Shown here piece after piece: positions 27,944 through 31,597 of a stretch of 33,985 nucleotides of DNA (the first letter of the stretch is position 1; each line of letters opens with the position of its first letter). Made by a program: the position numbers and the translations under genes. Location: positions 1 through 33,985 of the forward strand of contig CACHWO010000006.1 in the NCBI GenBank assembly GCA_902583685.1, given 5' to 3'. Under the pieces are notes generated by a model that was not told the origin of the DNA, made no database searches, and worked only from the letters and a program-made list of their open reading frames with translations. This DNA is from an uncultured Pelagibacteraceae bacterium (GTDB lineage: Bacteria > Pseudomonadota > Alphaproteobacteria > Pelagibacterales > Pelagibacteraceae).

Positions 27944-28789
27944 TTAAGAAAAAGACCTCACTTTGTGTTTTTGCTTACCTAGTTTATCTATTCTAAGCTC
28001 AACAGTATCTCCATCCTTTAAAAAATTTGATGGTTTCATATTTTCACCGACACCATCGGGAGTTCCTGTACAACAAATGTCTCCAGGATACAATGTCATA
28101 CAATTACTCATATAAGATACAAGTTTTTTTACGTTAAAAATCATTTCTTTTGTATTTCCAGTTTGCATTCTTTTGCCATTAACTTCTAAATACATGTTAA
28201 GTTTTTGGTAATCTTGAATTTCATCGACGGTCATAATATAGGGTCCAATAGGTCCAAATGTATCAAAACCTTTTCCTTTATCCCAAGTAAGACCTTTGTT
28301 TTTTTGAAATTCACGTTCACTAACATCATTAACTAAAAAAAAACCAAAAATGTAATTAAGTGCATCTTCTTCTTTAACGTAATTACATTTTTTTCCAATT
28401 ACGAAGCCTAATTCAACCTCCCAATCTGTTTTGGTTGAGTGTTTTGGGATTATAATATCGTCATTTGGACCTGAAATACAATTAACAAATTTAGAAAAAA
28501 TTATTGGTTCTTTTGGAATAGGTAAGTTTTGCTCTAAAGCGTGATCTTTATAATTAAGTCCTATGCCAATGAATTTGGATGGATTTGATACACAGGCTCC
28601 TATTCTTTCATTTTTATCAATTTCAGGCAATTCAGACAAATTACAATTTTGGATTTTTTTTAATGTTTCAAAGTTTAAAGTATTTCTATTTAAATCTTTG
28701 ATTATAGAGGACAAATCTTTAAAATTATTATTATTGTCAATTAAAGCCGGCTTTTCCTCGTTTATTTTACCAATTCTGCAGAGCTTCAT
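27944..28789 (-). CDS. Fumarylacetoacetate hydrolase (FAH) family protein
   Basis: FIGIGLNYKDHALEQNLPIPKEPIIFSKF, DWEVELGFVIGKKC, GKGFDTFGPIGPYIMT, ICCTGTPDGVGENMKPSNFLKDGDTVELRID. Confidence 0.95.
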   Translation of the reverse strand: MKLCRIGKINEEKPALIDNNNNFKDLSSIIKDLNRNTLNFETLKKIQNCNLSELPEIDKNERIGACVSNPSKFIGIGLNYKDHALEQNLPIPKEPIIFSKFVNCISGPNDDIIIPKHSTKTDWEVELGFVIGKKCNYVKEEDALNYIFGFFLVNDVSEREFQKNKGLTWDKGKGFDTFGPIGPYIMTVDEIQDYQKLNMYLEVNGKRMQTGNTKEMIFNVKKLVSYMSNCMTLYPGDICCTGTPDGVGENMKPSNFLKDGDTVELRIDKLGKQKHKVRSFS

Positions 28790-28815
28790 TATTATTTATT
28801 AAACTTTTGCTTTAA

Positions 28816-28890
28816 TGGCGGTCCCACGGGGAATCGAACCCCGATTAGATGATTGAAAACCATCTGTCCTAACCGTTAGACGATGGGACC
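28816..28890 (-). tRNA. tRNA-Glu (anticodon TTC), CCA encoded
   Basis: Reverse complement GGTCCCATCGTCTAACGGTTAGGACAGATGGTTTTCAATCATCTAATCGGGGTTCGATTCCCCGTGGGACCGCCA: acceptor stem GGTCCCA/TGGGACC, anticodon loop TTTTCAA, T-arm GGGGTTCGATTCCCC. Confidence 0.97.
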
Positions 28891-30653
28891 GAATTGTTAT
28901 TAGCTTTATTAACAGAAATATCATCGATAATAAACTCTACATTTCTGCGACCTTTCCATTCATTCAGACTCAATTTTCCAAAAATATTAATTTTTTTTGA
29001 ATTTTTTGATAATAAATAACTCTCCAAATTGGTTTTAATGGCATTAAAAGTCACACTTTTAATTGTAGAGCCATCTTGTCCTGAAAATATTGATTTAATG
29101 TGCTTTTCTGCCACAACTGAGGATTTTATTAATTTTAGATTTTCAATAACAAATTTTGGTTCAGGATTACCAGACCCAAATGGGGAAAGTGAATTTATAT
29201 CTAAAAAAAAATTTTCATTTAATGCAGAAGGAGAAATTTTTGTGTCAAAAAATAAAAAATTATCTTTGACTAATTTTTTTGTGGTTTTAGAAATCTTGTT
29301 GGATAAAAAATTTGTAAATTCCTCAATTTTTTTCTCTTCAATTGTAAAACCTCCAGCCATTTTATGACCACCACCTTTTTTAAGAATTTTACTCTGAACG
29401 GCGCTAAGTATCATGCTTCCAATATCAAAACCTACAACAGATCTTGCTGAAGCATGACCTAAACCATCATGAAATGATATTATTATTGTGGGTTTATTAT
29501 ATTTATCTTTAATTCTTGAAGCAATAATTCCAATTATTCCACTATGCCAATTATGACCTGATAAAATAATAAATGGTTTAGTTTTATCAATCGTAATTTT
29601 TTTTTCAATTTTATCTAACATTTCAAATTCTATTTGCTTTCTTTCATTGTTAAAACGTTCAAGTTCGCTAGCTATTTTAAATATTTCTTTCGAATTTTTA
29701 CTTAAAAATAAATTAGCTCCATGTGAACATTTACCAACACGACCTCCTGCATTTATTCTTGGTCCCAAAATATATCCAAGATGATAAGTTGTAATGTTAT
29801 TTTCTATTCCACAAACACTCTTTAAGATTTTAAGTCCAGGATTTGATCTCTTCCTCATAATTTCTAATCCTTGGCTTACAAATGCTCTGTTTAATCCAAT
29901 AAGAGGAACTACATCACAAACAGTGCCTAAAGCTACTAAGTCTAAATAATTAATTAAATTTGGTTCAATTTTGTTATTTTTTTTGAACCATTCAATTTCA
30001 CGTAATTTTTTATTTAAAGCAACTAAAAACATAAAACATACACCTGCAGCACAGAGATAATTAAGTTTTGACTCATCATCATACCTGTTAGGATTTATTA
30101 ATGAATATGCATTCGGCAGGTTTGTCTCTGCTTGATGATGATCTAAAACTATAACGTCTATATTTTTTGTTCTTGAATAACTGATTGTTTCAAAAGATAA
30201 AGTCCCACAATCAACCGTAAAAATTAAATTTGAACCATTCGAAATTAATTTATTGAAAGCTTTTTCACTTGGGCCATACCCTTCTGTTTTTCTATCTGGA
30301 ATATAAATTTCTATTTCTCTTCCTATTTCTTTAAAATAATTTCCTAAAATTGCTGTTGATGTTGCACCGTCAACATCGTAATCACCAAAAATTCCAATTT
30401 TCTCATTATTTGTAATTGCTTTTATTGCTCGTAAAACTGTTTTTTCCATATCTTTTAAAATGTAAGGATTTGGTAAAAAATTTTTTATTTTTGGTTCAAG
30501 ATACATTTTTACCTCTTCTAATCTAATATTTCTAATTGCTATTAATTTAGATAAGGTATCACTAAGATTGAAATTTTCTTTTAAAAATTTGACTTTCTCA
30601 TCGTTAAATGTTTTCGATATCCAATCTTTTCCTAGAACTGAGTTGTAGTTCAT
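28869..30653 (-). CDS. recJ: Single-stranded-DNA-specific exonuclease RecJ; 3' end overlaps tRNA-Glu
   Basis: IGIFGDYDVDGATSTAILGNYF, VLDHHQAE, GTVCDVVPL, GPRINAGGRVG, GHNWHSGIIGIIASRI, KGGGHKMAGGF. Stop codon TAG at 28869-28871 lies in the tRNA-Glu D-loop region. Confidence 0.95.
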   Translation of the reverse strand: MNYNSVLGKDWISKTFNDEKVKFLKENFNLSDTLSKLIAIRNIRLEEVKMYLEPKIKNFLPNPYILKDMEKTVLRAIKAITNNEKIGIFGDYDVDGATSTAILGNYFKEIGREIEIYIPDRKTEGYGPSEKAFNKLISNGSNLIFTVDCGTLSFETISYSRTKNIDVIVLDHHQAETNLPNAYSLINPNRYDDESKLNYLCAAGVCFMFLVALNKKLREIEWFKKNNKIEPNLINYLDLVALGTVCDVVPLIGLNRAFVSQGLEIMRKRSNPGLKILKSVCGIENNITTYHLGYILGPRINAGGRVGKCSHGANLFLSKNSKEIFKIASELERFNNERKQIEFEMLDKIEKKITIDKTKPFIILSGHNWHSGIIGIIASRIKDKYNKPTIIISFHDGLGHASARSVVGFDIGSMILSAVQSKILKKGGGHKMAGGFTIEEKKIEEFTNFLSNKISKTTKKLVKDNFLFFDTKISPSALNENFFLDINSLSPFGSGNPEPKFVIENLKLIKSSVVAEKHIKSIFSGQDGSTIKSVTFNAIKTNLESYLLSKNSKKINIFGKLSLNEWKGRRNVEFIIDDISVNKANNNSVPSSNG

Positions 30654-31597
30654 TTTTTTATTTTATTTGTGATTTTTTTTGATAATTTTTGGCTTTTATG
30701 AAGAATAAATGAAGATGCTTCAAAAAAATCACCTTGGTCTTTAATACCTTTAACCATTTCACCGTCAGTAACTCCAGTTGCACAAAAAATAACATCGCCT
30801 TTGATCATGTCGCTTATATTATATTTTTTTTTTAAATTTTTTATTCCTAATTTTGAAGCTTTTTGAATTTCATTATTATCACTTATTACAAGACGAGTTT
30901 GCATTTGTCCTCCAATACAATCTAGAGCTGCAGCAGCTAAAACTCCTTCTGGACCTCCACCAGTGCCTAAGTAAATATCTACTGGTGAATTTGGATCACC
31001 AACTGAAATAACGCCAGTAACATCGCCATCCGATATAAACTTAATTTTAACTTTAAGTTTATTTAAAGAATTAATAATTTTATCATGCCTGCTTCTTTTT
31101 AAGATACAAGCGGTTATTTTTTCAGGAACAGTATTTTTGGCTTCGCTCAATAATTTAATATTTTTCTCTACTGAAAAATCTAAATCAACAACGTTATTTG
31201 GTAAATCCGGTCCAATTGCTATTTTCTCCATATAAGTATCAGGGGCTGATAATAAACCACCTTTTTTTGTAACAGATAAAACAGATATTGCATTAGGCAA
31301 ATTTTTAGCTGTAAAGTTAGTTCCTTCAAGTGGATCAACTGCTATATCCAATTCTTCTCCAACATTTTTCCCGACTTTTTCACCTATATAAAGCATTGGT
31401 GCTTCATCCATTTCACCTTCACCTATAGCAATTTTTCCTTTCATTTCAATTTTGTTTAATTCATTTCTCATTTCATCTACGGCTGCTTGATCAGCAGCAA
31501 TTTTATCATTTTTACCTTTAAAAATAGATGCACCATAGGCAGCTCGTTCGCAAACTTTGATAAATTGATTAACAAGTTTTGGATTAATATTATTCAA
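30650..31597 (-). CDS. glpX: Class II fructose-1,6-bisphosphatase
   Basis: KIAIGEGEMDEAPMLYIGEKVG, DIAVDPLEGTNFTAKNLPNAISVLS, YLGTGGGPEGVLAAAALDCIGGQMQ, VIFCATGVTDGEMVKGI. Confidence 0.95.
   Translation of the reverse strand: MNNINPKLVNQFIKVCERAAYGASIFKGKNDKIAADQAAVDEMRNELNKIEMKGKIAIGEGEMDEAPMLYIGEKVGKNVGEELDIAVDPLEGTNFTAKNLPNAISVLSVTKKGGLLSAPDTYMEKIAIGPDLPNNVVDLDFSVEKNIKLLSEAKNTVPEKITACILKRSRHDKIINSLNKLKVKIKFISDGDVTGVISVGDPNSPVDIYLGTGGGPEGVLAAAALDCIGGQMQTRLVISDNNEIQKASKLGIKNLKKKYNISDMIKGDVIFCATGVTDGEMVKGIKDQGDFFEASSFILHKSQKLSKKITNKIKK

Follow-up and report, generated by a model that had tools for sequence, protein, structure and literature searches.

As judged from codon comparisons among related SAR11 bacteria, the last recJ codons are under a second constraint, at the level of the DNA, in addition to that on the protein; this is a new result. 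The tRNA-Glu gene that follows most probably has its own promoter embedded in recJ, with the recJ stop codon having slid into the tRNA by compaction. One stretch of DNA would thereby hold both protein sequence and the apparent promoter of what is seemingly the sole tRNA-Glu gene, and a second stretch, 15 nt downstream, serves as both tRNA and stop codon. The locus is a clean and widely conserved case of dual coding, with a cause that is likely mundane. It provides a sequence record of the extent of genome compaction in these very abundant ocean bacteria, and, for organisms with few mapped promoters, a candidate SAR11 promoter recognized by its evolutionary constraint.

The recJ Stop Codon Lies Within the tRNA-Glu Gene

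The window analyzed is a stretch of 33,985 nucleotides, and all of the features described here lie on its reverse strand. The recJ coding sequence (28869–30653; 594 codons plus the stop TAG) was recognized as an open reading frame with Pfam matches to DHH (1.8e-23), DHHA1 (5.7e-16) and RecJ_OB (6.8e-22). It is followed on the same strand by a tRNA-Glu gene with anticodon TTC and an encoded CCA (28816–28890; ARAGORN; Rfam tRNA, 61.5 bits). An earlier note on this DNA had described a 22-nt overlap of the two genes, with the last RecJ residues and the stop codon supplied by the tRNA. Both points were reproduced with the ORF list and ARAGORN: the overlap spans 28869–28890, the frame ends AAT AAC AAT TCG GTC CCA TCG TCT AAC GGT TAG as quoted there, and the TAG (28869–28871) is reached 22 nt into tRNA-Glu(UUC). 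The final RecJ domain match ends at residue 578, so that from about residue 579 onward the protein, with the tRNA-encoded VPSSNG, falls outside known domains. A single tRNA-Glu gene was found in the source draft genome (G000, 64.6% complete) and in the relative G036 (95% complete), and tRNA-Glu(UUC) is apparently the only tRNA-Glu gene of the genome.

Upstream of the tRNA, genes for homoserine dehydrogenase and a glpX-type FBPase (the latter at 30650–31597) and recJ are arranged in series and packed with 4-nt overlaps. Since the FBPase gene overlaps recJ by 4 nt, the message from which RecJ is translated is probably that of an operon. A gene for an FAA-hydrolase (27944–28789; open reading frame with a Pfam match of 1e-68) lies downstream, its start codon 26 nt past the tRNA CCA (28790–28815); in other relatives the distance to the first ATG is as little as 2–7 nt. 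The 5′ end of the FAA-hydrolase mRNA may be produced by 3′ processing of the tRNA.

Distribution of the Overlap Among SAR11 Genera

RecJ homologues and their 3′ ends were gathered within the same family, with one genome per species and with named SAR11 single-cell genomes included. The genus of the window is referred to as g1, its sister genus as g4, and the other SAR11 genera as g2 to g13. This comparison, suggested in the earlier note, upheld the overlap in most species of both genera. With positions counted from the tRNA 5′ end, 18 of the 26 g1 species have the recJ stop at +22 (the others at +1 in seven and +15 in one), as do 96 of the 109 g4 species (the others at 0 in eight, +1 in three, −5 in one and −11 in one). 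The 22-nt overlap is hence present in 114/135 species of the two genera, plus the single g8 genome. An assembly or frameshift error at the end of recJ was ruled out, as more than 100 species share the identical end.

In SAR11 genera further removed, the two genes are mostly separated, by 3–78 nt: 3–14 nt between recJ and the tRNA in g6, g7, g10 and g13, and 47–78 nt before tRNA-Glu in g5, g9 and g12. In g3, 35–51 nt precede tRNA-Glu, and a divergent recJ or another gene lies upstream; RecJ of this genus is 34–38% identical or was not found, near-complete genomes included, and tRNA-Glu still follows recJ where the latter is present. In g2 recJ and tRNA-Glu are kept apart by another gene, which in G057, for example, is an antisense TPR/sulfotransferase gene. 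Where such an antisense gene intervenes in g2, as at 388–1944 of one locus, a conserved TTGATCATTGAAACA...TATATAATAAATAC motif is present in the non-coding DNA ahead of tRNA-Glu.

Within g1 and g4 the recJ tree requires at least nine changes between a stop inside and a stop outside the tRNA, and parsimony gives no direction to them. Such frequent moves of the stop, and the persistence of lineages whose stop lies just short of the tRNA, mean that the overlap is not essential.

Synonymous Constraint in the Last recJ Codons

Synonymous codon identity, the chance that two species sharing an amino acid also share its codon, was used as the measure of DNA-level constraint. Codons 572–583 (28905–28940, tRNA positions −50 to −15) are under strong synonymous constraint, with an identity of 0.964 in g1 against an amino acid-matched expectation of 0.596, and of 0.897 in g4 against 0.632. 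Other codons drawn at random 20000 times never reached the g1 or the g4 value. RecJ of g1 and g4 is only about 60–63% identical, yet the DNA at −50 to −15 is nearly unchanged between them. The effect disappears in g2, where tRNA-Glu is displaced (0.663 against 0.737 expected, with only four comparable codons). Regional recombination or homogenization was rejected as its source, as the adjacent codons 556–569 and the 14 nt that follow the block vary freely.

The amino acids encoded here, VEFIIDDISV, are themselves highly conserved in g1 and g4, as would be the case if unusually strong constraint on the protein, or biased codon use, at the end of RecJ had frozen the codons with no DNA element involved. 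This explanation is hardly credible, as the synonymous choice is itself constrained: the block uses GAG (136/136) and mostly AAG, although nearby lysine codons are mainly AAA, and the effect is gone in g2 at the four comparable codons despite a similar RecJ end.

The constraint is bipartite. Among the 125 species with a 14-nt spacer between the block and the tRNA, no third-position change was seen at −45, −42, −39, −24 or −21 and a single one at −18, whereas changes at −36, −33, −30 and −27 occurred in 13, 13, 8 and 7 species, respectively. These relaxed third positions fall in the 17-nt gap between the hexamers TTTATT and TAATAA. The synonymous constraint does not spread beyond the stretch where a promoter would be expected.

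A Candidate tRNA-Glu Promoter Within recJ

The two frozen parts of the block can be read as a candidate −35 element, TTTATT (28929–28934, tRNA −44 to −39), invariant in all 125 species with the 14-nt spacer, and, 17 nt from it, a near-invariant candidate extended −10 element, TG-T-TAATAA (28906–28914, tRNA −24 to −16). An invariant TG precedes TAATAA at the spacing of an extended −10 element, and TTTATT would be a weak −35. The spacer between the block and the tRNA (28891–28904) is 14 nt in 125/135 species and variable in sequence, and it presumably contains the start site and a short tRNA leader. Codons 572–583 would in this way encode the end of RecJ and double as the tRNA-Glu promoter. Transcription would be expected to start about 8–9 nt before the tRNA, with the short leader removed by RNase P, and tRNA-Glu would be made independently of recJ transcription.

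In g2, g3, g5, g9 and g12, where non-coding DNA precedes tRNA-Glu, a TTGA-type hexamer was found 16–17 nt from a TAAATA/TAAAAG-type hexamer in 35/36 sequences. The regular expression for these hexamers was written after inspecting the sequences and is a description, not a blind test. The pairs begin 38–52 nt before the tRNA, and the embedded TTTATT-17-TAATAA begins at −44. A promoter model trained on these outgroups proved weak as an independent locator: in 300 nt of AT-rich DNA the embedded site had a median rank of 6 and came first in 1/135 species. TATAAT-like hexamers upstream of 74 SAR11 tRNAs were no better than in shuffled sequences (0.46 vs 0.42).

In one genome, G052, a NeuB-like gene (at about 1180–2165) has inserted between recJ and tRNA-Glu, and on either side of it stands a copy, in direct orientation, of 31 nt from the end of recJ. 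The copy of this block beside the tRNA, now in non-coding DNA, keeps the −10-like TAATAAG, and the copy in recJ has lost it. The insertion may be recent, since the two copies are otherwise identical.

A repeat flanking an inserted gene is also what a recombination site might leave, and nearly all of −50 to −15 is frozen, including the GAG of codon 573, a codon beyond the limits of the canonical −35 hexamer. The block could accordingly be a site for a regulator or nucleoid protein, a recombination site or an mRNA stability element, with the tRNA promoter elsewhere. Such a role is unlikely, given the bipartite constraint with its relaxed 17-nt middle, positioned like the candidate tRNA promoters of other genera, and given that the block core has no close match elsewhere in the genome and no exact match in the viral contigs scanned. 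On the latter ground a phage attachment-site origin was also discarded.

The earlier note had left room for a tRNA promoter of its own inside recJ, and the synonymous constraint, the promoter-like spacing and the outgroup candidates together argue for such an embedded promoter.

Origin of the Stop Codon Inside the tRNA

The position of the recJ stop inside the tRNA is probably the outcome of genome compaction rather than a switch. Two of the three reading frames of tRNA-Glu hit a stop at nt 15 or 22, and for this reason a recJ frame without an upstream stop is partly expected to run into the tRNA and end there. Once the intergenic gap was lost, the frame would stay open until it met a stop, in most cases the TAG at tRNA nt 20–22, and the extension would add to RecJ a dispensable tail, VPSSNG or VPSSIG. 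In species with other spacer lengths, a recJ stop at 0 or the tRNA stop at +15 is used. With the gap closed, the original stop lost and ready stops in the tRNA frames, the layout could have arisen by neutral drift as the genome was compacted.

Over the four codons that directly precede the tRNA (within the 14 nt at 28891–28904), in-frame stops occur in 2/125 species, against 31% in the +2 frame. This rarity is no lower than the base composition of the columns predicts for the 125 species, so no selection against upstream stops is claimed.

Possible Processing of the Transcript and Fate of recJ mRNA

If a recJ-tRNA co-transcript is cut by RNase P at the tRNA 5′ end, the upstream piece is left without a stop codon. 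The earlier note had pointed this out and had gone on to propose that the level of RecJ could be coupled to tRNA processing; the first part is established chemistry, and the second found no support. In silico, tRNA-Glu folds normally with the recJ leader attached. Genes for SmpB were found in 6/7 SAR11 genomes, G000 among them, and alpha-tmRNA also in 6/7, the search of G000 (64.6% complete) having yielded none. Some recJ mRNA may lose its stop to RNase P. Transcripts reaching into the tRNA would be translatable to a complete stop while uncut, and the cut ones would become non-stop mRNAs cleared by tmRNA-SmpB as a tolerated cost; as SAR11 carries both SmpB and alpha-tmRNA, occasional messages of this kind would be clearable. 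Non-stop recJ mRNA is a testable prediction.

If the recJ operon transcript were instead the main source of tRNA-Glu, ribosomes and RNase P could compete for it and thereby set the output of RecJ, part of which would be tmRNA-tagged. The stop within the tRNA in most g1, g4 and g8 species, the tight same-strand operon, the presence of tmRNA and SmpB and the scarcity of stops in the last four codons relative to another frame are all in keeping with such coupling. It is nevertheless very unlikely, since the embedded promoter signature appears to give the tRNA its own start, the stop position has switched repeatedly with some lineages stopping before the tRNA, and the scarcity of stops, predicted by column composition, is no sign of selection. 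That the stop was placed in the tRNA as a selected device, by which the competition would make RecJ synthesis or tmRNA tagging report on tRNA-Glu maturation, is more doubtful still.

Comparison With Known Systems

Bacterial promoters can lie in the 3′ end of an upstream coding sequence, and the recJ block would resemble these in starting a downstream gene from protein-coding DNA. It differs from intra-CDS promoters in general in its deep synonymous constraint over more than 100 species and in serving a tRNA gene. No earlier report of this kind for a tRNA was found in the open-access papers searched.

In the compact genome of Blattabacterium, genes on the same strand overlap (PMC2768785). Like these overlaps, that of recJ with tRNA-Glu is short and was probably made by compaction with loss of intergenic space. 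The Blattabacterium overlaps concern genes in general, whereas recJ ends in an essential structured RNA gene, and the candidate promoter of its neighbor also appears to lie within the coding sequence. The recJ/tRNA-Glu pair belongs with the compact-genome overlaps, with a candidate embedded tRNA promoter in addition.

Mitochondrial transcripts are punctuated by tRNAs and contain incomplete stop codons (PMC9674279, describing Ojala et al., 1981). The arrangements are alike in that a tRNA abuts or overlaps a coding end, that an RNase P cut can remove the stop and that the products would be dealt with by non-stop rescue. A mitochondrial mRNA owes its end to the cut and its complete stop to polyadenylation, whereas in recJ a full TAG is encoded in the uncut transcript. 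Unlike in mitochondrial punctuation, moreover, the tRNA has an apparent promoter of its own. With the defining incomplete stop absent, recJ/tRNA-Glu falls outside punctuation of the mitochondrial type. In the recJ case, repair by polyadenylation is not known.

Among the open-access papers searched, none reported the recJ/tRNA-Glu overlap, or any overlap between a coding sequence and a tRNA in SAR11, although this is no proof that such a report does not exist. The case is a warning about annotation pipelines in which coding sequences are shortened or discarded because they overlap a tRNA.

Other Contacts Between Coding Sequences and tRNAs in SAR11

Contact between a coding sequence and a tRNA is not unique to recJ/tRNA-Glu. 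Searches for tRNAs covered three genomes. An upstream same-strand open reading frame ends inside the tRNA for 2/22 tRNAs in the source genome and 3/25 in G036. The first base of tRNA-Ser(gga) is part of the TAG stop of a glycosyltransferase gene both in the source genome (contig C1, near 50301) and in G036, which represent two genera. A further contact in G036 (contig C6, near 30760) involves tRNA-Val(gac), into which a family-2 glycosyltransferase gene extends by 10 nt.
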